NCBI GenBank assembly: GCA_026986575.1
Contig: JALSOH010000009.1
Coordinates: 186,001 to 250,000 of the forward strand
Length of the DNA: 64,000 nucleotides
Source: Thermoproteota archaeon
Lineage (GTDB): Archaea; Korarchaeota; Korarchaeia; Korarchaeales; Korarchaeaceae
Direction of reading: 5' to 3'
The notes beneath the pieces are model-generated. The model was not told the origin of the DNA and made no database searches. It was given only the letters and a program-made list of their open reading frames with translations. Position 1 is the first letter of the stretch, and each line of letters starts with the position of its first letter. Shown here piece by piece: positions 5,843-37,078 of this stretch. Position numbers and translations under genes: made by a program.

Positions 5843-6863
5843 AATATAGTAGTCTTCAGGGGGAACAGGTGGTGACTTATCATAGGACAGGTAGGATCAC
5901 CCGTGTTATATGGCTGCATAATATCCTAAAAAAGTTGGCATCCAATGGCTGATGTAGGGGGCGGGCTTACGATTAAACGGAAAAAGCATAGGCATAGCGT
6001 TCCAGCAGATAAATGGAATTACCTCCCCTCACATTCAATATCATTTCCAGTTAGATCCCGACCTAAATTTATATTATGAGATGCTATGTCAGGGTGTAAT
6101 TTGAATCTTTTTTATCATTTTTAAAAAGACTGCTCGCAATAAAAGCGATGTTGAAAGCAAGCGCGCCTAAAACAGAGCTTCTCCTGACGCTTGCCGCAGT
6201 TTCACCCATGTTTCTGAGCTTGTTGATCAAGCTAAAGCCAAACGGTGTGGAGCTACACCCTGAATGGATTTTGCTGTTCCCGATAACGTTGTACCTGCCC
6301 AACATGAACCTAGAGGGATTACACAGGATATTCGATATCAGATGGTGCTGGAGGTCAAGGTCATCTTGAGCGAGAAGACCGACCTTTTACCATCCTCATG
6401 GCCATCGCGCGCTAATCTACTCCTTGCTGTTGCTTGGTGGCACATAGAACCTGCTAGCGCTCCATAGCAACATGTGAGGAGGTGAGTGGGTAAATTAACG
6501 GAGGTGAAGCGCGATTAGATACAATACAGCGAGCTATCGAGGGCATGGAGATCCATACGGGATGATGCTGATCGTTTATCCGTGAGAGGAGCATGGGGGG
6601 TAAAGCAAGAGGCTTCCTCTTCCCCCAAACCTTCTACCCCTAGTATCCTCTCCATAGTTGAAGGTAGTTGAAGGTGTGAATCGGTGGAAACTAGTGAAAT
6701 GTCTTACCGTTTGTAGGAGGGAACTGGAGGGTGGGTCGTGAGGGAAATCCTCTCGTAGGATCATGCCGGTGGAGCTAGAGGTCATGCTTTCCTCATTCCA
6801 GCAGAATAATCCCCCCAGAACCCTTGAAAGCATCGCGCGACCATTATATACCCAAGGAACTCG

Positions 6864-6890
6864 TGTCCGGAAAGTGTTCGTTTCCGGACA
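6864..6890. repeat. Perfect 10-bp stem-loop
   Basis: TGTCCGGAAA is followed after 7 bases by its exact reverse complement TTTCCGGACA. A TATA-like ATTATATA lies about 20 bases upstream (6844-6851). It has no T-tract, so it is not a typical terminator. It could be an operator left from a decayed module or the 5' hairpin of a small RNA. Confidence 0.55.
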
Positions 6891-6937
6891 TAGTGATAGG
6901 CTGGATATCGTGCCTTCCCACCGACTCCGCCTACGCG

Positions 6938-7093
6938 CGCGCTGCGTGAGGTGACTCCCCTAGGCAGAAAAGGAAAGGAAGTCGAAGTTTTGATGATATT
7001 CGGAATGAGTGGTGGAACGGAAGCTGGTGAACTCACAAGAGGTCGAAGAGGTGAGCAAGTGGATGTGCTCCGACACAACGCGTGCGGTTGATG
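6938..7093 (+). pseudogene. Decayed vapB-vapC junction
   Basis: The sequence aligns with the intact vapB/vapC pair at 11935-12503. A 34-base block (7038-7071) matches 12108-12141 with three mismatches, and similarity extends over the upstream antitoxin part (GATGAT..TTCGGAA..GAG). Indels break the antitoxin frame and the toxin aspartate-motif region is scrambled (CGACACAACG against CTTGACACAAGCG). It is a remnant of a second copy of the same VapBC type. Confidence 0.65.
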
Positions 7094-7247
7094 GATCGCT
7101 GCAGACAACTAGAGAGGAGCTTACCTCCAAGTTTACTGGGCTTGATGCTTGATGAGCGTCACTAGTTTATGCAAAGTAAAGTGAGGTAGAAGGAGAAGTG
7201 GATTATGAGGGGTTGGGGGACTAGTGTCACCTCAAGTCACGCATCGC

Positions 7248-7290
7248 TTATATAATAGTAATACTTACTGTGTACGTAATGACAGTAATT
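7248..7290 (+). promoter_or_regulatory. Promoter of vapBC pair 1
   Basis: The TATA box CTTATATAAT lies at 7248-7257, about 27 bases before the ATG at 7279, giving a nearly leaderless transcript. Repeated GTAAT/ATTAC pentamers surround the start and could be antitoxin binding sites. Confidence 0.55.
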
Positions 7291-7515
7291 ACCGTTAGGA
7301 TTGATGATGAGACCAAGAGGATGATGGAGCATATCAGAATAAACTGGAGTGAGTTCATAAGGAGCGCTATAAGGAGTAAGATAATGGAAGAGAGGAGGAG
7401 GAATCTAGCTAAGGCCGTGCTAATAACGGAGAGAGTGAGGAAGAGGAGCAGGGGAGAGGCAAAGGCTGAAGAGATAGTGAGGAGGTTCAGGGATGAGCGA
7501 GGAGGTAGTACTTGA
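7279..7515 (+). CDS. VapB-like ribbon-helix-helix antitoxin
   Basis: This is a 78-aa CopG/RHH-type protein. The N-terminal strand VITVRIDDETKRMMEHI is followed by two helices (WSEFIRSAIRSKIMEE), and a charged tail would bind the toxin. The ATG at 7279 is preferred over GTG 7270 because the RHH strand then starts directly and the TATA spacing fits. It overlaps the PIN toxin gene by 23 bases, the usual VapBC arrangement. It should neutralise the toxin and repress its own promoter. Confidence 0.8.
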   Translation: MTVITVRIDDETKRMMEHIRINWSEFIRSAIRSKIMEERRRNLAKAVLITERVRKRSRGEAKAEEIVRRFRDERGGST

Positions 7516-7945
7516 CGCAAGCGTCGTGGTGAAGTGGTTCGTGGAGGAAGAAGGGTCTAAGGAAGCCTTAGAGATCAGGGATAGGTACGTGGAAGGAGAA
7601 ATACGGATAATCGCTCCTGAGCTCATCACGTACGAGGTGCTGAACGCCCTCTACTACAAGAGGCTCTTCTCGGAAGATGAGCTAAAACTGATTTCCGAGG
7701 CTCTGGAGGCGTACTCCTTCTCCCTTCATCCTTTAAGGGGGGAGTACGCCAAGAAAGTTGTGGAGGTTTCGTACGAGAACGATATAACCCTGTACGATGC
7801 CTCGTACGTGGCCTTAGCGATCGTCAGGGATACTTTCGCCTATACAGCTGATGAGAAGCTCATACGAAAGTTGGGAAGGGAATATAGAAGGTACGTTAGG
7901 AGATTGGGGGGTGATGCTAGCAAACAGAGATGGAGAACTGTTTAA
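7493..7945 (+). CDS. VapC PIN-domain toxin
   Basis: This is a 150-aa PIN-domain ribonuclease. The first acidic residue is in VVLDASVVVKWF, a second is in the ITYEVLNALYYKRL helix, and the later aspartates are in ITLYDASYVALA and YTADEKLIRKL, so the Mg-binding set appears complete. VapC toxins cleave tRNA or rRNA when freed from the antitoxin. It is translationally coupled to the RHH gene upstream. Confidence 0.85.
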   Translation: MSEEVVLDASVVVKWFVEEEGSKEALEIRDRYVEGEIRIIAPELITYEVLNALYYKRLFSEDELKLISEALEAYSFSLHPLRGEYAKKVVEVSYENDITLYDASYVALAIVRDTFAYTADEKLIRKLGREYRRYVRRLGGDASKQRWRTV

Positions 7946-8266
7946 TGGAGGCGTGCGGTACCTGTCAACTTCAGCCATAGTAGGGGATCTCTAAGGTATG
8001 AGTTGAGAGATATTTCTGGCCATCAGAGAGTGAAGCCTGCTTTTTACGACCTATGTTCCCTTAAGCCTTCCGTGCTTGAGCTTAAAAGCAAACCGACGAG
8101 GCTTTGCATACCACTGTAAGAGGAGATAGAGGTCGTGATAAGTGAGTTCCGAGTTTTGTAGGGTGAGTAGATATACATGGTTGGGAGGAGATTGAGGAAC
8201 GTCATTTAAGTCTAGGAGGGCGACTCTATCCCTCGCTGACGTACTTCACGCGCGATCTGAGGGAGC
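7946..8266. other. Intergenic, nothing recognised
   Basis: These 321 bases lie between the convergent vapC and AbiE-type genes. I see no coding signature, tRNA or strong hairpin. Confidence 0.5.
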
Positions 8267-8878
8267 CTACCTAATTCGACTTAGCCAGAGGTCTACCTCC
8301 TCCCCTACCTTCTTACGCCCCTTAACGCGCCTCTCCTCCATCTCGCGAAGGTATTCCCTTAATCTACTCACATCAACCATTTCGAGCAGCCGGGGTATGA
8401 TCTCGTCCCTCGCTGGGTACCCGAGATAAATCAGATCGATCAAGGTCTTCTCGGGATCAGAAACCCTTATCCATTCGCCTATCTCGTCCAGATACTTGTA
8501 CTCATACCCGAAGTACATCTTACCCGAGATCCTCCTGAGCACCACCTTGAAACCAGCTACTTGCCTGATGCCCCACCTCACAGTCTTGGACACGTTTGGA
8601 GAGAGCACGGTCACGGCCGTCACCTGGTTCCATGCCCCGTGGAGGAACGCCGCCGAGCCTAATCCAATGTAGGCCCTTGGAATAGCCTTTACAATCATGT
8701 AGGGGGACTTCTTAAAGGTGTAAACTCCCCTCAACAGCTCGACTATCTGCCCTTTCCTTCTCAAATTGTGGATGAGTAGCTTAGCGTAGTCCCTCCCCAC
8801 GACTGCCTCGACAGATCTGAACGTGAAGATTGATGACCTTCTAAGTCTTTCGATGAATTCTGAGTACTTAGTGGGCAA
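8267..8878 (-). CDS. AbiEi-like antitoxin/transcriptional regulator
   Basis: This 203-aa protein matches the AbiEi ('transcriptional regulator of viral defence') type. An N-terminal winged helix (IFTFRSVEAVVGRDYAKLLI, LRRKGQIVELLRGVYTFKK) is followed by the alpha/beta domain (YIGLGSAAFLHG, TVLSP, SDPEKTLIDLIY). AbiEi binds the operon promoter and counteracts the AbiEii nucleotidyltransferase in type IV toxin-antitoxin systems. It is downstream of the toxin and overlaps it by 11 bases, the reverse of the classic order. Confidence 0.8.
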   Translation of the reverse strand: MPTKYSEFIERLRRSSIFTFRSVEAVVGRDYAKLLIHNLRRKGQIVELLRGVYTFKKSPYMIVKAIPRAYIGLGSAAFLHGAWNQVTAVTVLSPNVSKTVRWGIRQVAGFKVVLRRISGKMYFGYEYKYLDEIGEWIRVSDPEKTLIDLIYLGYPARDEIIPRLLEMVDVSRLREYLREMEERRVKGRKKVGEEVDLWLSRIR

Positions 8879-9503
8879 ATCTCTCCACCTTCCTGACGAC
8901 TGTCTCGAAACTTGGAGGCCTTCCCATCAGGACGATCTCCCTCAATACGGGATAATCGCGTGGAGGTTCCCTTAATAGGGGAAGGATGTGCCTGAGCAGG
9001 TCCTTCACGCTAGCATCCTCGCATAGATCCAAGAGGTAGTATATGTCATATAGATCTCTGGCTTTCCTCCTATTCGCATAGGCATGCACCTTCTCCTCCA
9101 GAAGCGAGCAGGGCGTGAGGGTCTTGACAACGACGGTGCTACCGTCAATCAACCAAAAGTCCCCTTCGATTACTTCTCTCTCCTCGAACATGGGGGAGGC
9201 CTCAAGTTCAACCTCAGCTTCATTGCTGATCCTCAGGTAAAGGACCCTAGAGGGTGTGAGCTTCATCCGAGTGATGTTCAAAGTTGGAGAGAGTATGCTG
9301 GGGATCCTCTCAACGTCTTGGCAGTATATATCCACATCGTACGAGAACCTCTTTCCGCCGTAGATCCTCCATATGGCCGTACCCCCATGAATCACGAAGT
9401 CAACGCCTCTCAACAGTTCCAGTAACAGGACATCCTGCACCTCTGCTATTCTAAGCATGTTGCCCCTCAACACCTTCATTAGAGGGATTTTCCTATACAT
9501 CAC
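8868..9503 (-). CDS. AbiEii-like nucleotidyltransferase toxin
   Basis: This 211-aa DNA-polymerase-beta-fold nucleotidyltransferase has the AbiEii signature FVIHGGTAIWRIYGGKRFSYDVDIY, with the GG and D-x-D catalytic elements. Later residues include KTLTPCSLLEEKVHAYANRRKARDLYDIYYLL, the family's conserved K...R.RDxxDIY region. AbiEii enzymes transfer nucleotides, and the related MenT modifies tRNA, causing growth arrest or abortive infection. The ATG at 9503 is about 27 bases downstream of the TATA element inside the 9519-9538 inverted repeat. Confidence 0.85.
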   Translation of the reverse strand: MMYRKIPLMKVLRGNMLRIAEVQDVLLLELLRGVDFVIHGGTAIWRIYGGKRFSYDVDIYCQDVERIPSILSPTLNITRMKLTPSRVLYLRISNEAEVELEASPMFEEREVIEGDFWLIDGSTVVVKTLTPCSLLEEKVHAYANRRKARDLYDIYYLLDLCEDASVKDLLRHILPLLREPPRDYPVLREIVLMGRPPSFETVVRKVERFAH

Positions 9504-9518
9504 AAATTCATTGACCTA

Positions 9519-9538
9519 GGTTATATTAAATTATAACC
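9519..9538 (-). promoter_or_regulatory. AbiE-type promoter inside an inverted repeat
   Basis: GGTTATA and TATAACC form a perfect 7-bp inverted repeat around TTAAAT. The whole 20-bp element covers the TATA region of the leftward transcript. AbiEi repressors are known to bind inverted repeats at their promoter, so this is a likely operator. Confidence 0.6.
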
Positions 9539-9789
9539 CAAATCAACGATAGATGATACGCGCGAATACCGATGTAACCGGATCGCCATCCCCGCTACTG
9601 ATGGGGTTCCTAGAGCTACAAATGTTTCACGAATTGAAGTTGAAAAAAGAGAAGAAAATAGGAATATGCTGCATTATTTCAAAATATCCACGTTTCTCGT
9701 ACCTTTTCTTTTTTCTCTTAACAAACACATGCTCCCTATGCCCTGCTAACACTTGTCTTCGATAACCGGGTCTCCTCTCGTAGCTCGCT

Positions 9790-10035
9790 TTAGTTAGTTA
9801 TCCCGACAGTATCTAGGATCTTCTGGTATATCTTTTTTCTCACTATTCTCCAGCACTCTGGATATATCTTCCCCTTTCCCTCCCCCTCTCTCATAAGGAA
9901 AGTCTTCATAAGGGCCCCTCCTGTCCTAATAGGCTCATATAGAGGGAGAAAGCCCTTGAGCCTCCTATTATTATACCAATAATGTAGCGAATCCATCAGA
10001 GTGTGAAATCGGGAATCCGTTCTACAGCGCGTCAC
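9790..10035 (-). pseudogene. Possible transposase C-terminal remnant
   Basis: An 81-codon frame contains SLHYWYNNRRLKGFLPLYEP, resembling the WYNxxRxHxxLxxxTP segment near the C-terminus of DDE-type (IS3/IS481-like) transposases. No N-terminal catalytic aspartates, terminal repeats or target duplication are visible. It is at best a short relic. Confidence 0.35.
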
Positions 10036-10456
10036 TCAGGCGGTTGCATTGAACTCGCTTACCTCGCGGCGATGTCGTCATCTCTCTGAAGCCTATACTA
10101 TGCTTAAGCGATAGCAGGCATGGTATGAGGAATTCGCCAGCATATACCTGTACTCCTTTACGTGGCCAATGTAACGCCTTTTAGGGTGGCCTATACTCCT
10201 TGCTCTCCTCTAGCTCTAACTTCACAGGTGTCGCCCTTCTATAGCGGAATTGCACGATCTTGGGTATCTACAGCATTATATCATTCATAACGATCCTCCG
10301 AATCACGAGTAGCGCTGGCTTAGTGTGTTCCCCAGTAATTATAGTAGATACTACCCGGCTCGGATGCAGTGCTCGGTACCACCACTAACCACGCGCGTTA
10401 TCGCGTGCTTAATAACTCTCAACCGTCTTACACCGGATGGAATTCCTAAGGAGGGG

Positions 10457-10670
10457 GCGGAGCAATTAAAGAAGGAAGCCAGAGAGCCTTCGAGAAGGGC
10501 AATTACAACTTCACTCTCCTGTTTGTAGAGCAGGCCATGCAGTTATACCTTAAATACACTCCGGCAAATCGGTGGGTGACTTCCCCAAGGTACAGGGACT
10601 CGTCCGTTTGTTAGAAGCCCTCTCCTCGGCCTTAGGTGAAAGAGTGATAGCATTCCTGCGCTCGCCTTGA
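10457..10670 (+). pseudogene. Frameshifted HEPN-domain gene
   Basis: Three successive frames carry a typical HEPN protein. AEQLKKEARE is in the first, EKGNYNFTLLFVEQAMQLYLKY (split here as EKGNYNF and FVEQAMQLYLKY) is in the second from 10492, and SVGDFPKVQGLVRLLEAL is in the third from 10569, ending at TGA 10668-10670. Two indels therefore separate recognisable HEPN segments. No intact MNT partner is nearby. Confidence 0.7.
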
Positions 10671-10770
10671 AAGATTCGAGAGGGAGATAGAGCCGCTATC
10701 CTCTACTAGTGAGAGGAGGATAGAGGTCCTTAAAGATCTCCATGAGAGGGGAATTGTTACCCAAAATTAC

Positions 10771-10789
10771 CTTTATATACCATGGTATA
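10771..10789 (+). promoter_or_regulatory. Promoter and palindromic operator of vapBC pair 2
   Basis: TATA box CTTTATATA at 10771-10779 overlaps the perfect 14-bp palindrome TATACCATGGTATA (10776-10789). The start codon at 10802 sits where transcription should begin. The palindrome between TATA and start is a likely antitoxin operator. Confidence 0.6.
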
Positions 10790-10801
10790 CCTTATGCTAC
10801 T

Positions 10802-11053
10802 GTGAGCGTGACCATATCCGTCAAGGTCAGGAAGGATGTTGTCGATCTGGCCGATAAGATGGTGAGGTATGGCATAGCTAGGAGCAGATCTCACGCCATA
10901 AACATCATGATAGAGAGGGGAATATCCCGAGCCAAGGAGGAAGTGGAACGCTGGGAGAGGATATATAGGGACGTTGAGAGATTGAGGAGGGAGGGATACA
11001 GGATAAGAAGGGGTGACCTCTGGAGGCTCCTCCAGGAGGGCAGATCGAGGTGA
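10802..11053 (+). CDS. VapB-like antitoxin
   Basis: This 83-aa protein has an N-terminal RHH-like region (VTISVKVRKDVVDLADKMVRYGIARSRSHAINIMIERG) and a basic, helical tail (RWERIYRDVERLRREGYRIRRGDLWRLL). I choose GTG 10802 because it begins the beta strand and lies about 25 bases after the TATA box; the ATG at 10742 would place the promoter inside the gene. Its TGA overlaps the toxin ATG by one base. Confidence 0.8.
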   Translation: MSVTISVKVRKDVVDLADKMVRYGIARSRSHAINIMIERGISRAKEEVERWERIYRDVERLRREGYRIRRGDLWRLLQEGRSR

Positions 11054-11457
11054 TGGGGGTGTACGTAGACACCAACGTGATCGTAGCGTTCATGGATGAA
11101 GCAGATCCCAATCACGGGAGAGCAGTAAAGGTGTTGGAGGGTTCCAATAAGGTCTCCTCCTTCCTCACACTCGTTGAACTGGCTTCAGTGTACTCTAGAG
11201 CTGGGTTTAGCGATCCTCAGGCCCTAGCAATATACTCCATGGAGGAGGCTGGGGTGGAGGTCTCAGAGGTAGGGTTTGAGGAGGTCCTCAAGGAGGCATT
11301 CAGGGTGGCTGACAAGATCAGGTTGAAGACCTTAGATTTACTCCATGTAGCCTCCTGCCTCCTGATGGGAGAGAAGGAGTTCCTGACTTTCGATGGTGAC
11401 ATCCTCAAGAAGAGGAAGGAGCTTGAAGGATTGGGGATAGAGGTCATCGGCGCATAG
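11053..11457 (+). CDS. VapC PIN-domain toxin
   Basis: This 134-aa PIN domain has VYVDTNVIVAFMDEADPNH (first Asp), FLTLVELASVY (Glu), KTLDLLHVASCLLM (Asp) and FLTFDGDILKKRK (last Asp). All PIN acidic positions are present, so it is probably an active Mg-dependent RNase. The start at ATG 11053 overlaps the antitoxin stop (TGATG), indicating translational coupling. Confidence 0.85.
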   Translation: MGVYVDTNVIVAFMDEADPNHGRAVKVLEGSNKVSSFLTLVELASVYSRAGFSDPQALAIYSMEEAGVEVSEVGFEEVLKEAFRVADKIRLKTLDLLHVASCLLMGEKEFLTFDGDILKKRKELEGLGIEVIGA

Positions 11458-11921
11458 GTTGGTAAGAGCTAATGTAGAATGGAATATCGCGCGCGATTCC
11501 TCGATGCTCACTCCACCACCATTTTATGGAGAGCTTCGTCCCTTGGACTCGTAGGTTACATATATACCTCTAATCACTTTATTCTCAGATCCAAGAGCTC
11601 GGTAGCCTTCCCTGAGGATATTATATTGGTCAGTAGGAGCCCCAATACGATGAACATCCTTTCCCTGCAGGGATATGGGACGCGCTCCCAGAATATTCTG
11701 AATTCAAGTTCGCCCATTTGTTCCCTCAGCTGTCGGGATATGGGAGGCTATCCTTCTCCAAGACATCCCTGAGTTTCACCGTCAAGACCTCCACTTCCAC
11801 CGAGTCGTGCAGCCAGCTTTATATCCCTGACTCCAAGAGGAATCAATCACCCGTACCATCCCGTCCTTACCCGCGCCGGACGACCCATCGGCGTGAACAT
11901 CAAACTTTTATCTCTCGGACT
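11458..11921. other. Intergenic, no gene recognised
   Basis: About 460 bases separate two vapBC pairs. Short open frames on both strands have no family signature. The right end carries the TATA-like ACTTTTAT near 11904-11911 of the next pair. Confidence 0.5.
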
Positions 11922-11937
11922 CATACATGCATGTATG
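11922..11937. promoter_or_regulatory. Perfect 16-bp palindrome over the vapB start
   Basis: CATACATGCATGTATG is its own reverse complement. Its last three bases are the antitoxin ATG (11935-11937), and a TATA-like ACTTTTAT lies about 25 bases upstream. It is a likely autoregulatory operator. A looser copy of the motif occurs near 58132-58152. Confidence 0.6.
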
Positions 11938-12156
11938 CCCAAGACGATAACGATATCCGATGATGTTTACGAGGAGTTGAAGAGGATCAAGGGGAGCAGG
12001 AGCTTCTCCGATGTAATAAGGTCTCTCTTGAGGAAGAAAAGCAACGCCGAAATCTTGATGATAGCATTCGGAACGAGGAGCGAAGTGGAAGCCGATGAGC
12101 TCAAGAGAGAGGTCGAAGAGGTGGGCAAATGGATGCGCTCCTTGACACAAGCGTGA
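11935..12156 (+). CDS. VapB-type antitoxin (DUF217/UPF0330-like)
   Basis: This 73-aa protein starts PKTITISDDVYEELKRIKG and continues SRSFSDVIRSLLRKK, the pattern of the small archaeal VapB family paired with PIN toxins. ATG 11935 is preferred to the ORF extension upstream because the promoter and palindrome lie in that extension. It overlaps the toxin gene by 28 bases. A decayed copy lies at 6938-7093. Confidence 0.8.
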   Translation: MPKTITISDDVYEELKRIKGSRSFSDVIRSLLRKKSNAEILMIAFGTRSEVEADELKREVEEVGKWMRSLTQA

Positions 12157-12503
12157 TAATAGAGGTATTCAGGGGTAATGAAAGGGTGAGAGACCGCCTC
12201 ATTGAGCTTGGCCTGAACTACGGGATCTCTACCGTTACACTATTCGAACTGCACTGTGCCCGTCTGAAGCCTAGGGAGGAGCTCATGCTCGAGAAGCTCC
12301 CCAAGCTTCCGTTTGACGAGGGATCGGCGAAGCTAGCTGGGAACATGTACCGGGACCTGAAGAGCGAGGGACGCATTCCTCCCGCTAAGGACCTCTTCAT
12401 AGCCGCATCCGCGATAGCCCACGATAAGCTGCTCCTGACCCTCGATTCCGACTTCAGGGTATTTGAGAAGTACGGGCTCAGGTCGGAGTTCATTAGGGAA
12501 TGA
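12129..12503 (+). CDS. VapC PIN-domain toxin
   Basis: This 124-aa PIN domain has ALLDTSVIIEVFRGNERV (first Asp), STVTLFELHCARL (Glu), PPAKDLFIAASAIAHDKLLLTLDSDF (the two later acidic clusters). It is complete by length and motif and is likely an RNase neutralised by the upstream antitoxin. Confidence 0.85.
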   Translation: MDALLDTSVIIEVFRGNERVRDRLIELGLNYGISTVTLFELHCARLKPREELMLEKLPKLPFDEGSAKLAGNMYRDLKSEGRIPPAKDLFIAASAIAHDKLLLTLDSDFRVFEKYGLRSEFIRE

Positions 12504-12537
12504 GGGTTACATACAAGGGTTTTGCGAGGGCGGAAAC

Positions 12538-12927
12538 CTATTTCTCTGGAGTGACTATGCAGGTCTGCCGTTCCGGACCGTCCATCAGGAGGCGGAGGAA
12601 TCTTAGCACCTCCCTTCCCACTATCATCTTCCCTTTTCCCATCAGCGGCGATTCCACGTAGGTCTCGATCCTCTCGTCACCCAGTAGGACGATAGACTTG
12701 GCTGTCCTCATGGGTATTACGCCGGACAGAGATCTGTAAATCCTCCAGTACTTTCTGGGAATCTCACCCACCTCGAAGAACCTGTAAACGTCCTCGGAAA
12801 CGAGTAGAGACCCCTCAAACCCGGTATCAACCATGAAGTCCAGTTCTTGAGGATATTCCTGCAGAAGGACGTTGAGCAATTTCAACCTCAGTCTGGGATA
12901 GGGGACTATCGATTCTCCGTATTTCAT
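12538..12927 (-). CDS. Retropepsin-like (clan AA) aspartic protease
   Basis: This 129-aa protein has the single-domain retropepsin signature DFMVDTGFEGSLLVSEDVYRFF (Asp-Thr-Gly, then a hydrophobic flap-preceding strand) and a later IVLLGDERIETYVESP stretch. Such small proteases act as dimers, with one D-T-G per monomer. The start is ATG 12927, which overlaps the upstream TGA as ATGA; the upstream-extended frame is unlikely. It is coupled to the RHH-DUF5678 gene, so the pair looks like a toxin-antitoxin-style module with a protease as effector. The substrate is unknown. Confidence 0.7.
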   Translation of the reverse strand: MKYGESIVPYPRLRLKLLNVLLQEYPQELDFMVDTGFEGSLLVSEDVYRFFEVGEIPRKYWRIYRSLSGVIPMRTAKSIVLLGDERIETYVESPLMGKGKMIVGREVLRFLRLLMDGPERQTCIVTPEK

Positions 12928-13325
12928 ACACTCTCCAGCTCTAAAGATCCTCCCAGCCACTCTAGCTCCCTCCTTGTCCTATCATCCTCCCCGATCTTCA
13001 CGACCAAGGCGTTCCTGATCGGGGGCCTCAGGCCCTTGAGAGCGGATGCAACCTCCTCCAGAGAGTCGAAGAGCCCCACCAGCTTTCCCCTCGCGATCAC
13101 CGCGTACTTGCCCTCTTGCTTCCTCAGCTCTTCCTTGAGGGACTCGTAAGCCAGGTTATTGACATCCTGCTCCGTGATCAGGAGCTTATCCTTCAGGTCG
13201 AGCCACACCCTGACCGCCTCTTCGAACGCCTGGGAAAGGGTCAGCCCTCTCCTGATTGCTTCAGCCTTGAACTCCCTCACCAGCCTTTCGTCCGCGTTCT
13301 TTATCACTAGGGTCATCTGATTCAC
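12924..13325 (-). CDS. RHH-like / DUF5678-like fusion protein
   Basis: The 133-aa protein has an N-terminal RHH-like region (LVIKNADERLVREFKAEAIRRGLTLSQAFEEAVRVWL, about residues 5-43). It then has a DUF5678-like domain (EELRKQEGKYAVIARGKLVGLFDSLEEVASALKG, about 70-105, then ALVVKIGEDD). The first region suggests DNA binding and antitoxin-like autoregulation; the second is a small domain of unknown role. The promoter has TATA enclosed by GATTAC/GTAATC repeats. ATG 13325 is used; ATG 13316 is also possible. Confidence 0.6.
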   Translation of the reverse strand: MNQMTLVIKNADERLVREFKAEAIRRGLTLSQAFEEAVRVWLDLKDKLLITEQDVNNLAYESLKEELRKQEGKYAVIARGKLVGLFDSLEEVASALKGLRPPIRNALVVKIGEDDRTRRELEWLGGSLELESV

Positions 13326-13362
13326 CTAAGTGAATTTGATTACATAGGTAATAAAGGTAATC
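13321..13362 (-). promoter_or_regulatory. Promoter with flanking inverted repeats, RHH-DUF5678 operon
   Basis: Reading leftward, the TATA-like CTTTATTAC (about 13346-13354) lies between GTAATC (13357-13362) and GATTAC (13338-13343), a 6-bp inverted repeat. An imperfect palindrome TTCACCTAAGTGAA (13321-13334) overlaps the start region. The design matches the AbrB/PIN promoter at 22415-22441. Confidence 0.55.
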
Positions 13363-13620
13363 GCGGTGGTTCGCACGCTCGGTGTAGTTTGAGTGAGCAG
13401 CTTCAGGCTAGGAGGCGACTCTCTTATCCTCACCCACTTTCTCAATGTTTTCTTTCACATTTTTCCTCTTATCCCACGCTCATGGTGTTCGAAAAGGATG
13501 CTAGCTTTGTCAGGATCGGTATAGCGTTCAGAATTAGCCCGAGTCAATGGAGGGTTGCTACACCCACCATGTAAGCTCTCGTGAGGGGAGTGATATCACT
13601 TGTAGCGGCCCGCAATCGCT

Positions 13621-14208
13621 TCATGTCTCCTGCAACCTCTGGGTCCCCTTTCTCTCTCCCCTCACAGGCCTCTTACGAGGCCTCCTCGTGATGACTTTAA
13701 GATTTCTGATTTCTGAGACATCTCTCTTCAAGATCCTCCTCATGATCCCTTTACCTTCCCTCGACAGTTCGTTCCAGCTGATCACCCCGATGAGCCGCTC
13801 TCTTAGGTACTCCCTCTCGATCTCACTGATGGCTTTCCTAACTAGAATAGTGTAACTCCAAGAGAGGACCCTGATTCCCCTCCCTTCCAGCCAGAGGCGG
13901 ATGAGATCTGCCACGAGTTTCGCCTTATCTACCTGCTTAATCACCCTCCTAGGCTTCAGGGTTGTCTTGAACTCGAAAGCGTGGAGCCATGTCATCCCAG
14001 CCTCTTGAAAGAGGACTAGATCTATCTCACCCAGGATCTTCTCATTCTCACCGGATGTGCTGATGGCCGAGATGCTATGCAGGGATCTGTAGCTGGGGAA
14101 GACCATGATGACGGAGTTCCTCATGGGCATCTCATGGAGTACCTCGACCATCCCCTCGACGAGCTTGAGCTCACCATATTGGGTTGAAGCTCTGGTGAGG
14201 ATCTTCAT
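13621..14208 (-). CDS. PD-(D/E)XK nuclease-like protein
   Basis: At 195 aa from ATG 14208, the protein contains GEIDLVLFQEAGMTWLHAFEFKTT, fitting the D-x(n)-E-x-K core of restriction-endonuclease-like folds, and then KQVDKAKLVADLIRLWL, a helix with the Gln often found after the core. The C-terminus is strongly basic (RNLKVITRRPRKRP), suiting nucleic acid binding. A TATA-like CTTTTTATT at about 14234-14243 places the transcript start near ATG 14208, so the 49-codon upstream extension is probably non-coding. It lies downstream of the ParA-like gene on the same strand. Confidence 0.6.
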   Translation of the reverse strand: MKILTRASTQYGELKLVEGMVEVLHEMPMRNSVIMVFPSYRSLHSISAISTSGENEKILGEIDLVLFQEAGMTWLHAFEFKTTLKPRRVIKQVDKAKLVADLIRLWLEGRGIRVLSWSYTILVRKAISEIEREYLRERLIGVISWNELSREGKGIMRRILKRDVSEIRNLKVITRRPRKRPVRGERKGTQRLQET

Positions 14209-14452
14209 CCAACTCGGCCTCAATTGGATGGAATAAAAAGCAAATTGGCCGAAATTATCATGTAGTCGCCTCTCGGTGAAATTACCGGGCAGTCGTTGGA
14301 CTCGCACCCGACATGGACACAGTCCGAGCCCCTGATGCTCGCGCGAATCACGCATTCAGATGAATCCGATCGGTTAGAAGGGGATCCATCCCAGCTTCTC
14401 GGCCATCTCCCGCAAGACAGGATCTACCAGCGAGAGAAACCCGCTGGTTCCC

Positions 14453-15313
14453 TCACCCCCCCCTCTCCCTGCCGCCCAGATCGAGTCTCAAGATCTGAAC
14501 ACTTCTCGTGATGAAATGCTTGAGTATGGTGATCCTGCCCTCAAGCTCCTTCAGCAATGCGGCCAGGGATTCTATCATTTCGTTCCTCCTGAGGGTCTTC
14601 GCCTCACCTTCACTTGGTTTTCCTCTGTACCCCAGATTTCGGAGCAACCTGTACTCCATCTCACTTGGATTCGAAGGCGCCAGGTTTATTATGCCCACGA
14701 ACCTAGAGTAGAATTCCTTGATGCCTCCCATCTCATCCGCGTAGTACTGCTCCAACTTGTCGATCATCCTCAGAGTCCTCTTACAGTCTATGATGGCAGG
14801 TCTAAGCACCACCGCGTAGGAGGTGGAGAGGAAAATACTTAGAACGGTGTAACGCAGATCGAAGAAGGGAGCGCTGTCCAGTATGACGTACTTGAACTTT
14901 GAGTATACCCCGGCTTTCTCAAAGAGCCGCTTAAATATAGATCCAGGTTTCCCAGACTTCCATGCGTCGTCGATGACATCAACGAAATTCTCTCCGGGAG
15001 AGAGGATCCTGAGCGGAATGTCTCCTATCCTAGCAGGGCTCAGGTAGTCGTCCACCAGGATATTCTTCCTATGTTTGATAGAATCCTCGTACATTGCCTC
15101 TAGGGTCATCCTGCCCTCAACTACACGATCGTATGACACATTGTCCATGACAGCTAGGCTAAGACCGGCCGTGGGATCCATGTCCACCAAGAGAATGTCA
15201 TAGGGGTTGACCTTCAGGATCTTGACCAACCAGGCAGCCAGGGCTAGGGAGAGGGTGGTCTTGCCAACGCCGCCTGAGGCGGATATGAAGGATATTATCC
15301 TAGATGATGACAC
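14453..15313 (-). CDS. ParA/MinD-like SIMIBI ATPase
   Basis: At 286 aa, this has a P-loop SASGGVGKTTLSLALA at about 11-26, Walker A' DILLVDMDPTAGLS, and Walker B YVILDSAPFFD. The classic deviant Walker A begins with a signature Lys (KGGVGKT), but here that position is Ser. Other features follow ParA/Soj. ParA proteins move DNA or protein cargo; here the neighbours are nuclease-like, and no centromere or ParB is visible. The GTG start at 15313 overlaps the upstream gene by 14 bases, so the two are co-translated. Confidence 0.75.
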   Translation of the reverse strand: MSSSRIISFISASGGVGKTTLSLALAAWLVKILKVNPYDILLVDMDPTAGLSLAVMDNVSYDRVVEGRMTLEAMYEDSIKHRKNILVDDYLSPARIGDIPLRILSPGENFVDVIDDAWKSGKPGSIFKRLFEKAGVYSKFKYVILDSAPFFDLRYTVLSIFLSTSYAVVLRPAIIDCKRTLRMIDKLEQYYADEMGGIKEFYSRFVGIINLAPSNPSEMEYRLLRNLGYRGKPSEGEAKTLRRNEMIESLAALLKELEGRITILKHFITRSVQILRLDLGGRERGG

Positions 15314-15695
15314 AGTTCTTATCCATGAGAGAGTAAATGATAAGTCTTATACCCAGCCTTCTCCCCATCGCGGTTACCCGTGACAGGTACCCTTCGTCCA
15401 AAGCATCAACTATATGAAGTAAACCAGCTGAGCCGATACCGGCTACCTCCTCAAGAGCCACGGCCTGACAGAATCCATAAAAGAATCTTTCGGGCTTTAT
15501 TTTCACCTCCAGAGCCTCAGTTCCCCTGAGAACATCAGCTTCAACGCCGTTGATCACTGTGTTGGCATCGCCTCCTACCGAACTTGCAAGAAGCCTGTTG
15601 AAGTCTTTCTCATCTCTCGCCATATCGAGGAGCTGGTGAAACCTGCTAGAGCGAATGAGCTGTTCGACGTCGCTCACGAGACTGGATGTCTTCAT
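15300..15695 (-). CDS. Small PD-(D/E)XK-like protein
   Basis: This 131-aa protein has NGVEADVLRGTEALEVKIKP, matching a D-x(6)-E-V-K nuclease core, followed by FFYGFCQAVALEEVAG with a Gln at the usual motif-IV position, and GIRLIIYSLMD as a later strand. It therefore looks like a minimal restriction-like fold. ATG 15695 is chosen because the TATA box AACTTATATC (15718-15727) predicts transcription starting there; ATG 15710 is the alternative. It is the first gene of a two-gene unit with the ParA-like ATPase. Confidence 0.5.
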   Translation of the reverse strand: MKTSSLVSDVEQLIRSSRFHQLLDMARDEKDFNRLLASSVGGDANTVINGVEADVLRGTEALEVKIKPERFFYGFCQAVALEEVAGIGSAGLLHIVDALDEGYLSRVTAMGRRLGIRLIIYSLMDKNCVII

Positions 15696-15713
15696 ATAGA
15701 AGGATCTCATGCC

Positions 15714-15734
15714 CCAGATATAAGTTAATTCTGG
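15714..15734 (-). promoter_or_regulatory. Promoter of nuclease-like/ParA-like operon
   Basis: TATA AACTTATATC is enclosed by the 5-bp inverted repeat CCAGA (15714-15718) and TCTGG (15730-15734). Similar repeats around TATA boxes occur at the toxin-antitoxin promoters in this window. Confidence 0.45.
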
Positions 15735-23999: not shown

Positions 24000-25196
24000 C
24001 TAAGAGGGCACTGAGTATACCTTTTCCAATTCCTCCGGTTGAATGATACCATCCATGTCCGTATCATTCCATCCGACGACCACGAGGGTCTTGTCCACCA
24101 ACTTCCAACGGTTTTCCAACACCCATATCAGCGCCGCTCTAGTTCCTACCTTGGTCGTTCCAGCCAGCCTCGCGTTGAAACCACCCTCGCAAGTGAGATG
24201 TACTATGCCGAAATCCCTGTGCTCGTCCGAGATGAACATCGAGTTGTTCATGGTGATCCTGCCTTCACCGAGCTGGATGTTATACTTGCTCCAAGGTTGG
24301 GGTCTGACTGCCAGCCAACCGACGAACATCACATTTCCCTCTTCCCCTAGTCCGGCCTTCCCGGAGAGGTTCCCTAGGATATCTGAATTATATTCAAGGT
24401 CCTCGCTGTATCCCCTGTATTTGGCGGATCTGGGCCATCCATCGGGCAATGGACACGTTTTAATGGGCTGTGGCATGGGAATGCTGACCGTAACATGTCT
24501 CTCTTTCTTGTTGAAGTGAGCTACAGCTTTGTGATCGCTGTTCATCTTGATAGAAAGCTTCTTAGTGTACTTGGCGACTCCATCGAGTGTCCAGTGACTG
24601 AATTCCCATCCAGCGTGGGCATTGGGATTGAGGGTCACAACAAAGCCGTGAGAGAGGGTGTGGACTCCCACACCGTAGGGGCTCACTTCACCCGATCCCA
24701 CCGGGTCCACCGCCACCGTCAAGCGGTGTCCGGTCCTCTTCAGGTAGAGGGTAACCTTCGCTGACGACCCCTCGTTGATGTACACGTAAGCCCTGTTACC
24801 AGTTATAACCACGCTGGTGAGTTCCCTTGATGGTTGGGTACCGGAAATCATCGCCTCGACCGTACCTATACCGTCTGTGATGTCTCCACCGTAGGATAGG
24901 GATACCACCCAGTGATCGAAGGAGTACCCAGAACAGGGATGTGGTGTGAGTCGGTACCAGAGAGAAGGCTCCACTAGGGTTGTATCGCCGTGTCCGTAGG
25001 TCCCTGCTGGACTATAGGGTCCTGAAAGCGAGGAGGAGACCTCCATCTCTATGGGATCGCACGCCGTGATCGCGGTCCCGGCGCTCACCTCCTTCACTCC
25101 AAAGCCGATGTCAGAAACATTGATGACTATGGCTAGCCCGGTTAACGGGGTGACCAAGAGGATCGCTACTAAGGTTGCCACCAAAATGCGCTCCAT
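24000..25196 (-). CDS. Secreted protein with InlB-type repeats and shared C-terminal domain
   Basis: This 398-aa protein has an N-terminal signal (ILVATLVAILLVTPLTGLAIVI) and two InlB/Flg_new-type repeats (YSFDHW, WEFSHWTLDG followed by DHKAVAHF). A C-terminal domain of about 150 aa is common to three other proteins in the window. That domain includes KYRGYSEDLEYNSDILGNLSGKAG, KVGTRAALIWVLEN, LVVVGWND and a final EF-hand-like DTDMDGIIQPEEL. It is likely exported and calcium-binding, perhaps part of a cell envelope. A TATA-like ACTTTATTAC lies near 25222-25231. It is separated from the larger paralogue by about 280 bases. Confidence 0.75.
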   Translation of the reverse strand: MERILVATLVAILLVTPLTGLAIVINVSDIGFGVKEVSAGTAITACDPIEMEVSSSLSGPYSPAGTYGHGDTTLVEPSLWYRLTPHPCSGYSFDHWVVSLSYGGDITDGIGTVEAMISGTQPSRELTSVVITGNRAYVYINEGSSAKVTLYLKRTGHRLTVAVDPVGSGEVSPYGVGVHTLSHGFVVTLNPNAHAGWEFSHWTLDGVAKYTKKLSIKMNSDHKAVAHFNKKERHVTVSIPMPQPIKTCPLPDGWPRSAKYRGYSEDLEYNSDILGNLSGKAGLGEEGNVMFVGWLAVRPQPWSKYNIQLGEGRITMNNSMFISDEHRDFGIVHLTCEGGFNARLAGTTKVGTRAALIWVLENRWKLVDKTLVVVGWNDTDMDGIIQPEELEKVYSVPS

Positions 25197-25474
25197 CGCT
25201 ATCTAAGATTGAATGAGCATTAAAGTAATAAAGTTTTCTGTTGGAAATTTTATATGGAAAATATCATCATCTCTTTTGGGAAATCAATTTAATTTAGTAA
25301 ATGTCTATTTTGATTTACAAATAAGCGTTCGCAAAGACCTATCAAGACACATTCTGGGTCTTCTAATGGGTTGCGAAGTTGAAGATGAGCCGCAAGCAGT
25401 TCCCACAGCGGGAGCATCAGATGATTGCTTGAAGGACATCCGATCTGATTCGTAAAAAAGAGGAGAAGAGGGGA

Positions 25475-28045
25475 TCACGGAACCTCATACACCACTGTGA
25501 TCTCCCCGTCCTGCACCTGATGGTCATAGTTGGCATCGATCCATTCAACCACTATAAGCAGCTTACCGCTTGCCTCGTCCGGATGATTCAGCAGCCACAT
25601 AAGCGCGGCCCTAGTCCCGAACCTGTTTACGCCCGCGACCCTCACCACCATGTTGTCGCAGTCGAAGAGTATCGCGCCATAGTCCTTCTCTCCATATGTC
25701 GCTGTGTACACTTGATCCTTGACCCTCAGAGTGTTGTCCTCGAAGTAGACCTCGTACTGCTCCCATGGATACGGGATCACGTTAGGTCCACCGAGCACGA
25801 TCACCTTCTTCTCCTCACTAGGTCCTGCCTTACCCGCCAGTCTGCTCAGCAGGTCCTGATTGAACTGAATGTCCTCGTACATGCCCCTGTACTTCATCTC
25901 CTTCGGAAATCCGAAGGGCAGGATGCATCCCTCGTAAACCGGTGCTGCGACAGGGATAGTTGGAGAAGGCGGTGGCGTTTCCCTCTCCTTGAAGTGCGCA
26001 ATGACCTCGTGATCCCTGTTCATGGAGAAGGTCAGGGTGAGGCCAGATCCCCTGTTGGAGCCATCGAGCTCCCAGTGATCGAACTCGAAGCCAGCATGCG
26101 CGGTTGGATTGAGGCTGATAACCGTGCCTCTATCTATCTGGTAAGTGCCGACGTGGTAGGTGTGAGTGTCTCCAGCGGTAGAGGGGTTCGCCTTTATGGT
26201 GAGAGTGTACTGCTTCCAGTACACGGCCTTTATGGTACGGTCGTCGTTCATGGAGAAGGTGCTGCCGGACCAATGGGAGCCGTCCAGCTCCCAGTGATCG
26301 AACCTGTAGCCAGGGCACGAGCGATAGCTGGGAGATACATCCGTTCCTCTGTAGAGATCTGTCACGCTATCTCCATCGCCGTAGTCACCGTCGGGATCGG
26401 GTGGATTGTTCTGCGCACCAGCTGGGGGTGAGAAGTCCATGTGCACCGTGCATCCCACAGGGGCACCGAGTTCGTCTCTGACCTGAACATCCAGATCCAC
26501 CAGTTTCCAATAAACCGCCCCCAGGGTCTTATCTCCGTCCATGGTGAAGGAGCATGCCCCCGTTCCGGAGCAAGGCCCACTCCAGTGATCGAAGTTGTAG
26601 CCACTGTAGGAGTTAGGTGAGGCAGTGATCTCCGTGCCGATGTCCATGGTCAGGGAATCCGAGTTGTCGTAATCTCCATCGCTGGGGATGTTGGGGTTGT
26701 GAGCTCCAGCAGGCGCGGTGAATGAGAGGTGTAAACTAGCCCCAACGGAGCCTCCTAAATCGTCCTCTATGTCGAAGTCGAGGGTCACCTGCTTCCAGTA
26801 CACAGCCTTTATGGTGATGTCGCTATCTCCCACAGTGATCCCAGCTCCAGGGTCACCGCTCGCACCGCTCAGCTCCCAATGATCAAAGCGGTAACCTGAG
26901 CATGTGCCTGGGCTTGCAGTTATCACCGTGTACTTGTACACATCCCTCAACGATGCACCATCAGCGTACCAGCCACTGTAATCGGGTGCCTGTTCTGCAT
27001 TATCCGGCAGGGTGAACTGCAGCCTCACCTTGCATGAAGAGGGCATGCTGGCTCCGTCCTGATCCACGACCTCCACATTCACGTCAACCACTTTCCAGAA
27101 GAAAGCTGCCGCGGCCTTATCCTCGGTCATGGTTAAGGTGCAGTCGCCTGTACCGGTGCAGTCGCCGGTGGTATGGCCGTTCCAGGTCCCCCAGTGGTCG
27201 AACACTCTTTGACCGCATGGCGTGTTCGGGCTGAGCGTGATGGTCGTACCGTCATCGTACACCAGAGTATCTCCGTGGTAAGCATCCGACTTCCCGTTGT
27301 TATCGGCAGGTCTCGCGTGAATGGAGCATCCAGAGAGTGGGAAACCGTCCTCATCACCTATTTTCACCTCAAGTCTCCAGGTCTTCACGAAGACCGCCGT
27401 CAGTGTGTGATCTCCATCCATGGTCACGGTGATGCTCGTATCAGTACCTGCATTGCTTCCATCCAGCACCCAGTGATCGAAGCGGTAGCCTGAGTTAGGA
27501 CTGGCTGTTACGGTGACCTCCGTTCCCTCGTCGTACGTGAGAGTGCCGTCCGCCCCGGAAACTAGGTTGCGACCGTTCACATCGCTCGGTTTGGCCTTGA
27601 CCCTTCCGGCATCGTCGGGATCGATATCGATGTAGAGATCCGCCCTCTGCTTCTTCAGATATAGGGTGGCCTCACCCACGCTTCCTTTAAGCTTGTACTC
27701 TAGGACTCCACCGCTGTTCCTTATCACATCAACGTTACCGGATGCCTTCCAGTGATCGAAATCATAACCGGCGCATTCTCCCGGCCTGTAAGTGAACCTG
27801 TAATAGCCCTTGCCCCTGTATGCCGTTTGGCCGTCCATGAAGTTACCGACTAACTGGTACGAATCGCCCTCGTGTTCCTTGAACTCGACCTTCACAGCCT
27901 TGCATCCGGTCACATGCCGGCCCGTCTCGACATCCTTGACGTGCACATTGGAGTGACAAGCGGATGCCTGCTGGAGGATGAGCACGCTGCCCAACAAAAG
28001 GAGGGCTAGTCCCAGCATCACAAGACGACGTAATTCCACTGTCAT
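25475..28045 (-). CDS. Large secreted protein with seven InlB-type repeats
   Basis: At 856 aa, a signal peptide (LVMLGLALLLLGSVLILQQASAC) precedes seven repeats, each with a (Y/F)xFDHW motif followed by a turn and an A(V/H)F or AVYWK strand. Cys pairs recur between repeats and may form disulfides. A Pro-rich spacer leads to the shared C-terminal domain (YRGMYEDIQFNQDLLSRLAGKAG, VLGGPNVIPYPWEQYEV, GEKDYGAILFDC, RVAGVNRFGTRAALMWLL, then an EF-hand-like DANYDHQVQDGEI). InlB-type repeats usually extend proteins away from the surface. A TATA box GACTTATAAG lies near 28079-28088. Confidence 0.78.
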   Translation of the reverse strand: MTVELRRLVMLGLALLLLGSVLILQQASACHSNVHVKDVETGRHVTGCKAVKVEFKEHEGDSYQLVGNFMDGQTAYRGKGYYRFTYRPGECAGYDFDHWKASGNVDVIRNSGGVLEYKLKGSVGEATLYLKKQRADLYIDIDPDDAGRVKAKPSDVNGRNLVSGADGTLTYDEGTEVTVTASPNSGYRFDHWVLDGSNAGTDTSITVTMDGDHTLTAVFVKTWRLEVKIGDEDGFPLSGCSIHARPADNNGKSDAYHGDTLVYDDGTTITLSPNTPCGQRVFDHWGTWNGHTTGDCTGTGDCTLTMTEDKAAAAFFWKVVDVNVEVVDQDGASMPSSCKVRLQFTLPDNAEQAPDYSGWYADGASLRDVYKYTVITASPGTCSGYRFDHWELSGASGDPGAGITVGDSDITIKAVYWKQVTLDFDIEDDLGGSVGASLHLSFTAPAGAHNPNIPSDGDYDNSDSLTMDIGTEITASPNSYSGYNFDHWSGPCSGTGACSFTMDGDKTLGAVYWKLVDLDVQVRDELGAPVGCTVHMDFSPPAGAQNNPPDPDGDYGDGDSVTDLYRGTDVSPSYRSCPGYRFDHWELDGSHWSGSTFSMNDDRTIKAVYWKQYTLTIKANPSTAGDTHTYHVGTYQIDRGTVISLNPTAHAGFEFDHWELDGSNRGSGLTLTFSMNRDHEVIAHFKERETPPPSPTIPVAAPVYEGCILPFGFPKEMKYRGMYEDIQFNQDLLSRLAGKAGPSEEKKVIVLGGPNVIPYPWEQYEVYFEDNTLRVKDQVYTATYGEKDYGAILFDCDNMVVRVAGVNRFGTRAALMWLLNHPDEASGKLLIVVEWIDANYDHQVQDGEITVVYEVP

Positions 28046-28283
28046 AGAAAGTAACCTAAAAATTCGTAGAAAGTGTTCTTATAAGTCTTTTGGTTAAATT
28101 AACTCCGAAATCTATAGTCCGAATTCAAGTTCGTACGAGCTCTCGTGAGGCCGAGGGGAATAAAGCTTCTCATGGATCGACCAGTTTCAGGAAGATCGTG
28201 GGACCAGATGCGACGAATTCTTGGAGATAGTAAGAAGGAGCGGAGGAATAGAAACTGATAATTCTCACGCATGGATGCATTTA

Positions 28284-29105
28284 CTACCACTCAACAATGG
28301 GAGAGATCTCCCAGTATTCGACCTCACCATTGTCATTTAGGTCAATCCACTCCAGTATAATGAGATCTTTACCGACAAGAAATTCATACTCCTTGAGCAA
28401 CCAGATCAGTCCAGCTCTGGTCCCGTATCTGGTGATTCCAGCTATTCGAATGTCCCCATCATCTTTTATCAGTATGACAGCGTAGTCCCTTTTACCAAAA
28501 ACAGCATTGAATCTATCATCCGCTACCACGAGGGAGCACTCTTGGAAGGACACATTATAGTTCCCCCAAGGGAAAGGGATAGCCATCGGGCCCCCTAGAT
28601 ACAAGACTCTGCTACCATTACCTTTTAAGTCGCCTATAAGATCTCCATTTAGGGATAAATCGATCTCTCCAGCGACCAACCTGTAATCCATCGGAAATCT
28701 CCATTCAGCGCCTCCGGCCATGCTTCCCGCTCCCTTTTCGTCTCCCTCACTCGAACTCACACTCTTCAAAGGAGCGACGAGGGTTTCTTTAACGAATAAA
28801 GCTCTCAAGAGGTGGTCTTCACTCATCTCAATCCTTATGATAGGTGAGTTCCTCCCGACCCTCTTGCCATCGATCTCCCACTGGTAGAAAACGTAGCCCT
28901 CGGCGGGTTCCGCCCTAACGGTGACTACCTGTCCTTCATCATATGAGTGAATGCCGGGTGGGGGAAGTGTGGTGCCCTCACCCACGACGATTATCTCCAA
29001 CGTGTGTGGGCCGGATGCCACAGTCTTAGGTACATATGCGATCAAAGATAGCAGCACCGCGACCACGATGACGACAGGGCCGAGTATACTGATTTTTCTT
29101 AGCAT
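28284..29105 (-). CDS. Secreted InlB-type single-repeat protein with shared C-terminal domain
   Basis: This 273-aa protein has a signal or anchor helix (ILGPVVIVVAVLLSLIAYV), one InlB-type repeat (GYVFYQWEIDG, DHLLRALF), a short linker and the common C-terminal domain (YLGGPMAIPFPWGNYNV, GKRDYAVILI, RIAGITRYGTRAGLIWLL, LIILEWIDLNDNGEVEYWEI). It is the smallest of the four paralogues. The leader ATAGCG before ATG is shared with the 24000-25196 gene (ATAGCGATGGAG), so their upstream regions are related. Confidence 0.75.
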   Translation of the reverse strand: MLRKISILGPVVIVVAVLLSLIAYVPKTVASGPHTLEIIVVGEGTTLPPPGIHSYDEGQVVTVRAEPAEGYVFYQWEIDGKRVGRNSPIIRIEMSEDHLLRALFVKETLVAPLKSVSSSEGDEKGAGSMAGGAEWRFPMDYRLVAGEIDLSLNGDLIGDLKGNGSRVLYLGGPMAIPFPWGNYNVSFQECSLVVADDRFNAVFGKRDYAVILIKDDGDIRIAGITRYGTRAGLIWLLKEYEFLVGKDLIILEWIDLNDNGEVEYWEISPIVEW

Positions 29106-36394: not shown

Positions 36395-37078
36395 ATGTCT
36401 CTCTCGGCCGAGGAGAAGAAAAAGTTCTTGAAAGCATTGGAGGAGGATGAAGAGTTCAAATTCGCAGTAGCTGGCCTGATCGGTTACAGGGAAATTCTTG
36501 AGCGCATAGTCGAGCTGGAGAGCGGCCAGAAGGAGCTGAAGGAGAGCGTGGAGGGGTTAAAGGAGGGCGTTGAGGGACTGAAGAAGGGGCAGGAGGAGCT
36601 GGAGAGCGGCCAGAAGGAGCTGAAGGAGAGCGTGGAGGGGTTAAAGGAGGGCGTTGAGGGACTGAAGAAGGGGCAGGAGGAGCTCAGGAGGACAGTCAAC
36701 GTCATAGCCCACAGGTTCGGGGTTATATCAGAGATGTCATTCAGGGAGGGGTTGAGGCATGTCTTGGAGGAGGAGTTCGGCGTCGCTGATGTGGGCAGGT
36801 TCGTGATGGAGGACGATGAAGGTCAGGTCTACGGCCATCCGAGTGAGGTGGAGGTCGATGTACTGGTCAAGGACGGCAAGCACATCCTCATAGAGGTGAA
36901 GTCGAGGGTCTCGAAGGGAGACGTGGCCGAGCTCCACAGAGTCGGGAAACTTTACGAAAGGAAAATTGGAATTAAACCTTCTCTGGTGATAATAGGTGGT
37001 TTAATTGATGAAGGGGCCAAGGAACTGGCGGACAGACTAGGCGTGAGGATAATACCCGCTGTCGATTCATCTAGATGA
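36395..37078 (+). CDS. Coiled-coil PD-(D/E)XK nuclease-like protein (DUF3782-like)
   Basis: At 227 aa, the N-terminal helix is followed by a coiled coil built from two identical 28-aa units (ELESGQKELKESVEG...). Residues about 135-215 form a restriction-like fold: EVEVDVLVKDGKHILIEVKSRV with Asp and E-x-K, then HRVGKLYERKIGIKPSLVIIGG. This is the archaeal/cyanobacterial DUF3782-type architecture. DNA cleavage is inferred. The internal 84-bp duplication shows the coil can change length. Confidence 0.75.
   Translation: MSLSAEEKKKFLKALEEDEEFKFAVAGLIGYREILERIVELESGQKELKESVEGLKEGVEGLKKGQEELESGQKELKESVEGLKEGVEGLKKGQEELRRTVNVIAHRFGVISEMSFREGLRHVLEEEFGVADVGRFVMEDDEGQVYGHPSEVEVDVLVKDGKHILIEVKSRVSKGDVAELHRVGKLYERKIGIKPSLVIIGGLIDEGAKELADRLGVRIIPAVDSSR
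36512..36679 (+). repeat. Perfect 84-bp tandem duplication
   Basis: Two identical copies (36512-36595 and 36596-36679) start GAGCTGGAGAGCGGCC and encode 28 aa each, four turns of a 7-residue heptad. The identity implies a recent duplication or gene conversion, or an assembly artefact. Confidence 0.9.

Follow-up and report, generated by a model that had tools for sequence, protein, structure and literature searches.

A two-gene archaeal module of a ParA-type ATPase without the signature lysine and a small protein of predicted PD-(D/E)XK nuclease fold

A stretch of 64,000 nucleotides (the window, to which all positions refer unless stated otherwise) from the archaeal assembly G000 (1.91 Mb, 11 contigs) harbours three open reading frames (ORFs) on the minus strand, located at 15300-15710, 14453-15313 and 13621-14355. 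In a preliminary description, which was made from the sequence alone, they were taken for a ParA/MinD-like ATPase flanked by two PD-(D/E)XK-like proteins and were proposed to form a new system serving defence or element maintenance. The locus thus raises the question of which of these genes belong together and what their products might do. The arrangement of the three ORFs on one strand, the 14-base overlap between the small ORF and that of the ATPase, and the motifs D...EVK and D...EFK of the first and the third protein, respectively, were all found as described.

The gene boundaries were corrected with the help of the sister genome G015, the closest relative in the comparison. The gene of the small PD-(D/E)XK-fold protein (15300..15695, minus strand; ~131 aa from the conserved ATG) lies in an ORF that runs to 15710, yet its start is probably the ATG at 15695 and not that at 15710, since the latter reads ATA in G015 and a TATA-like element, CTTATAT (15718..15724, minus strand), which is kept in G015, is found ~25 nt before position 15695, at the spacing expected of leaderless archaeal mRNA. 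The inverted repeat noticed earlier around this TATA element consists of 5-bp arms, and its interpretation as an operator was rejected, because a comparable repeat arises in 57% of shuffled 80-nt stretches and the one observed is broken in G015. The gene of the ParA/MinD-family (SIMIBI) ATPase without the signature Lys (SASGGVGKTT; 14453..15313, minus strand) overlaps the small gene by the 14 bases mentioned above. Compared with the 95% identical protein of G015, its product is missing the last residues owing to a frameshift at a run of eight C/G. The remainder of the C-terminus, LVDPVLREMAEKLGW, is encoded out of frame past this run (14375..14460, minus strand); in G015, where it is in frame, the ATPase frame is open through to the end, and the frameshift of the window copy may be an assembly error. 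The third gene (13621..14208, minus strand; 195 aa) starts at 14208, the point at which all seven relatives begin, and not at 14355.

The third protein resembles the nuclease domain of Cdn1, VC1899, Card1 and Can2. Its model (pLDDT 78) matches Cdn1 in Foldseek with an E-value of 7.5e-5 and a probability of 1.0, and the residues E61, D63, E79-F-K81 and Q92 are invariant in seven of seven sequences. The PD-(D/E)XK domain is common to this protein and to Card1, Can2 and Cdn1, but the third protein has no CARF sensor domain and is the product of a stand-alone gene. It adjoins the other two genes only in the window and in G015, and in five relatives (G001, G002, G005, G014, G016) its homologues have no ATPase beside them. 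Since the gene stands alone in these five genomes, and since it begins ~245 bp past the ATPase stop in the window, it was placed outside the conserved module, and the three-gene system was rejected. What remained of the system proposed in the preliminary description is the association of the small gene with the ATPase, which is strongly conserved, whereas that of all three genes is not.

In G015, G025 and G008 the small gene is located directly upstream of the ATPase, and in G003 it is found at a contig edge. A scan of the whole collection revealed further ATPase copies in Thermoproteus, Pyrobaculum, Caldivirga, Lokiarchaeota and Baldrarchaeota, nearly all of them beside a similar small gene. 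A search with the profile of the small protein alone, a test that does not presuppose the ATPase, yielded 46 places: 37 in the class of Pyrobaculum (81 genomes), five in the phylum of the window and four in Asgard archaea (228 genomes). At 42 of the 46, the small gene has a family ATPase, intact or in broken remains, no more than 85 bp away, and the two genes overlap in 29 of these 42 modules. The four exceptions comprise one weak partial match, the copies of G020 and G621, which are interrupted by internal stops, and that of G640, which lacks the ATPase; the profile match in G102:C19 (E-value 5.7e-5), being weak and having no ATPase nearby, was taken as false. The small gene precedes the ATPase in 20 modules and follows it in ten, while nine are convergent and three divergent, and at least four changes of arrangement are required by the tree. 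Because the adjacency survives all four arrangements, it is very unlikely to result from chance or shared descent alone, and we have little doubt that the Lys-less ParA-type ATPase and the PD-(D/E)XK-fold protein are conserved together as a functional pair.

The distribution of the module is patchy. Of 45 Thermoproteales, 20 carry the family ATPase, and 32 of the 81 genomes searched in the Pyrobaculum class carry the small gene. Both are rare outside these groups: a broader search gave seven of 394 genomes, two being repeats of the class set, and that of Asgard archaea four of 228. Some genomes hold two or three copies (three family ATPases in the case of G134). Intact small genes are located beside broken ATPases in G127 and G128, where the breaks may be assembly errors, and in some other genomes the ATPase persists after decay or loss of the small gene. 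No copies of the module were found in the IMG/VR, phage and plasmid collections, and its origin from a virus, phage or plasmid was rejected for lack of matches there. The open-access literature yielded no described ParA-nuclease pair in archaea, so that the two-gene module is apparently undescribed.

The window ATPase matches the Pfam families AAA_31 (1.2e-11) and CbiA (2.9e-10), both above the gathering scores, and the nearest PDB sequences are those of ArsA, Get3 and Soj. In its Walker A motif (FISASGGVGKTT) Ser replaces the signature Lys, just as had been noted at the outset, and this proved to be a property of the whole family: all 44 members carry the loop SA[S/P/A/G]GG[V/A/T]GKT, and the signature Lys (xKGGxGK) is found in none of the 44 but in 14 of 14 outgroups of the ParA/MinD/Get3 type. 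All 44 do retain the GKT of Walker A and the aspartates of Walker A' and B, without variation. The family is split from the outgroups with an SH-aLRT value of 91, and, judging by this tree, the Lys-less ATPases paired with the small protein form one monophyletic clade. With ParA/Soj, MinD and SegA (AAA_31, CbiA; PHROG 164) they have in common the SIMIBI P-loop fold, the GKT, the A' and B aspartates and an adjacent small partner gene. They differ in the complete loss of the Lys, a residue thought to define the ParA family, and in the partner, which is a PD-(D/E)XK-fold protein and not a ParB or SegB, as in ParABS and SegAB, or a MinE.

In addition to its near identity with the G015 copy (95%), the window ATPase shares 31-35% identity with the copies of five other relatives, and on the tree it clusters with G471 and G475, two copies from the Pyrobaculum class, and apart from the copies of its own phylum. 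This grouping suggests a horizontal transfer of the window copy, and horizontal spread of the module is likewise argued for by the patchy distribution and the multiple copies per genome. The setting suggests an accessory module which moves horizontally and is retained by its hosts.

A distant paired ATPase of G468 has the canonical KGG loop with the signature Lys. In this locus (L188, G468:C135, 2000-3344) a KGGVGKTT ParA overlaps by 8 bases a distant PD-(D/E)XK protein, which carries FEVK and in which GLGE replaces GxGQ. Since the KGG loop is retained in a paired ATPase, the pairing may be older than the loss of the Lys, and the G468 pair is possibly the ancestral form of the module.

The small protein, which ranges from ~110 to 137 aa in the family, is covered by no Pfam, NCBIfam or PADLOC family, and its profile found nothing among the PDB sequences. 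The window protein carries E34, D59, E68-V-K70, G79 and Q82 (numbered from 15710), in agreement with the order E...D...E[VI][K/E]...GxGQ seen in an alignment of 24 divergent members, none of which deviates at E, D, E, G or Q. In an AlphaFold model obtained with these 24 sequences in the alignment (pLDDT 91.1, pTM 0.85), E34 is part of a helix, D59 and E68-x-K70 lie on neighbouring strands, and the helix that follows carries Q82; the elements of the model have the alpha-beta-beta-beta-alpha-beta order of the PD-(D/E)XK core. XisH, PspGI, NucS/EndoMS, Mus81, N.BspD6I, Ecl18kI, FokI, Can1 and XPF were among the best Foldseek matches in the PDB; the single matches are weak (best E-value 0.04, TM ~0.45-0.49), with one fold common to them. 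From the model and the invariant residues, the small protein is predicted to be of the PD-(D/E)XK nuclease fold, so that the fold first suspected for both flanking proteins is supported in each, although no homology between the two was detected (probability 0.3%). The core of helix, three strands, helix and strand, in which E, D, ExK and Q stand where they are expected, is also that of XisH, NucS/EndoMS, PspGI and archaeal Hjc. The small protein is unlike these nucleases in its short length, in having no Pfam match, in its nearly constant link to a ParA-like ATPase and in the ExE found in about half of the family.

The motif III position is held by K in 17 and by E in seven of the 24 aligned proteins; over all modules the counts are 21 for K and 19 for E, with two unread, and at least three changes between K and E are required by the tree. 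An ExE motif could mean that DNA is bound without being cut. BamHI, on the other hand, is an active enzyme with ExE, and Glu in motif III therefore leaves the activity unsettled. Values of dN/dS between 0.04 and 0.28 for the small gene and the ATPase gene indicate that both are under purifying selection. Within the Pyrobaculum-type clade, an intact ATPase is in several cases accompanied by a degenerate small gene or by none at all. The small protein of one decaying copy shows a D-to-S change.

Taken together, these features are compatible with an ATP-switched DNA-processing module in which the Lys-less ParA-type ATPase controls a mini-nuclease, a reading to which we give an even chance. The ATPase, in which the Walker A, A' and B residues are intact, would use them to bind ATP and would dimerise on DNA in the manner of ParA, with the missing Lys altering its nucleotide cycle. 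The nucleotide state of the ATPase would recruit or license the mini-nuclease, whose E-D-ExK/E-Q active site would nick or cut DNA. The likeliest purpose would be either defence or genome surveillance, with action on DNA that is foreign or aberrant, or else the processing of DNA intermediates, the sequence evidence favouring neither. We regard it as evenly poised whether the small protein cuts DNA under the control of the ATPase. Against the reading as a whole stand the weak single Foldseek matches, the Glu in about half of the modules, the mostly housekeeping neighbours, which make for a weak defence-island context, and the ATPases that outlive the small gene.

The established role of ParA-type ATPases is to move plasmids, chromosomes and organelles, for which they rely on dedicated adaptors. 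The main alternative, which we consider unlikely, is the partition or positioning of DNA or some other cargo, with the ATPase as a ParA motor, the nuclease-fold protein as a DNA-binding adaptor in the role of ParB, SegB or McdB, and cutting lost or irrelevant. Apart from the ParA type of the ATPase, it is favoured by McdA type 1, the ATPase of cyanobacterial carboxysome positioning, which is a working ParA-family ATPase likewise without the signature Lys (PMC8262871); McdA, however, is bacterial, and its partner McdB lacks the nuclease fold. In pNOB8, the adaptor genes overlap and precede parA (PMC5120986), an order matched by 20 of the 42 modules, and the ExE variants and the D-to-S change in the decaying copy would suit binding without cleavage. 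Binding alone, on the other hand, would need no E-D-ExK/E-Q set, which is nevertheless retained. Nor was a clear repeated or palindromic centromere-like site seen by the window module, a scan of which, together with the sister locus, gave nothing convincing, and a partition role is further opposed by the patchiness of the module even within one order and by the lack of plasmid or virus copies. A Lys-less clade tied to a nuclease-fold partner across four gene orders would widen the repertoire of the ParA switch.

The overlap of the two genes, their patchy occurrence in multiple copies per genome and the further toxin-antitoxin modules near the window copy are also reminiscent of a toxin-antitoxin pair, with the small nuclease as the toxin and the ATPase as its antidote. 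In the same direction points the retention of the ATPase without the small gene in some genomes. We consider this improbable: G127 and G128 have an intact small gene by a broken ATPase (unless these are assembly errors), the convergent and divergent orders are atypical of such pairs, and we know of no ParA-type ATPase acting as an antidote.

It seems just as improbable that the module assists DNA exchange or recombination in a way similar to the VirC1/ParA-like ATPase reported from the Ted DNA-exchange loci of Thermoproteales. The Ted loci carry a ParA/MinD ATPase together with HerA and Rad50 (PMC9905601), and the two ATPases are both ParA-like, occur in Thermoproteales and have HerA or Rad50 among some of their neighbours. 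One Thermoproteus module has herA-mre11-rad50 on one side and a nurA-like gene on the other, and one Pyrobaculum module faces a radA-like gene, but neither context recurs. In G135, taken as P. calidifontis by its TedC (AVA/QA signal-peptide site, at the position expected for Pcal_0765), the ParA (711145-711762) neighbouring tedC (721020-721481) is a canonical one with the signature Lys (HSKGGTGKTT), a different protein at a different locus, and the members of the Lys-less family lie ~440 kb away. Identity of the module ATPase with the Ted gene was rejected on these grounds.

The Thermoproteus module belongs to genome UBA157 (L065, 5711-10096); among its neighbours only HerA is supported by a profile, the other names being given by reading. 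The Pyrobaculum module, from WP30 (L066, 6683-8807), is head to head with its radA-like gene, a homologue of which is found near tedC in the P. calidifontis genome (L193).

The preliminary description had derived defence or element maintenance from the setting among toxin-antitoxin and AbiE modules. AbiE and VapBC/PIN genes are indeed located near the window module. Comparison of window positions 5950-13650 with G015:C48 (L150), however, showed that ~5.7 kb between shared flanks are absent in G015, and this stretch, which the module adjoins, contains the AbiE genes, two VapBC-like pairs and a pair of a ribbon-helix-helix and an aspartic-protease gene. Other genes occupy the space in G015, one VapC being next to the third gene. 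Elsewhere, 146 neighbours scanned with Pfam and PADLOC are mostly housekeeping genes, and an all-against-all comparison of the neighbours at 32 loci revealed no third broadly recurring partner, only the ATPase and the small protein. No PADLOC model matched P0001 or P0002, the relatives gave only weak P-loop or short matches, and membership in a known defence family was rejected. The original proposal thus found no backing in PADLOC models, in the neighbourhoods elsewhere or in viral, phage and plasmid collections; a role of the module in defence or surveillance is possible and fits its accessory, horizontally moving character, short of proof. The boldest interpretation, a new archaeal class of ATP-switched nucleases in which a permanently Lys-less ParA-type clade aims a PD-(D/E)XK nuclease of ~110-137 aa, probably in defence or surveillance, is put forward only tentatively and with more doubt than confidence. 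Few DNA-segregation or defence systems of hyperthermophilic and Asgard archaea have been worked out, and the module would offer a small, directly testable two-gene system in these organisms.

Several other loci of the window deserve mention. The aspartic protease of Clan AA and the ribbon-helix-helix gene which it overlaps (12538-13325) possibly represent a two-gene regulatory or toxin-antitoxin-like unit; the protease matches NCBIfam TIGR03698 below the cut-off (E-value 5.5e-11) and a PADLOC protease with an E-value of 0.001. At 36395-37078 a coiled-coil nuclease-like protein with DUF3782 and PDDEXK_10 is encoded (Pfam E-value 3.6e-23). Scattered proteins at 24000-29105 and 62662-63969 have a similar C-terminal region with the pattern D-Y-A...V-R-x-A-G...G-T-R-A, one of them with InlB B-like repeats, and apparently form a family of surface proteins. 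Finally, the N-terminal half of a HerA-like ATPase ORF at 7-1977 matches Pfam Intein_splicing (E-value 3.8e-16), and the intein appears to be located at the P-loop.
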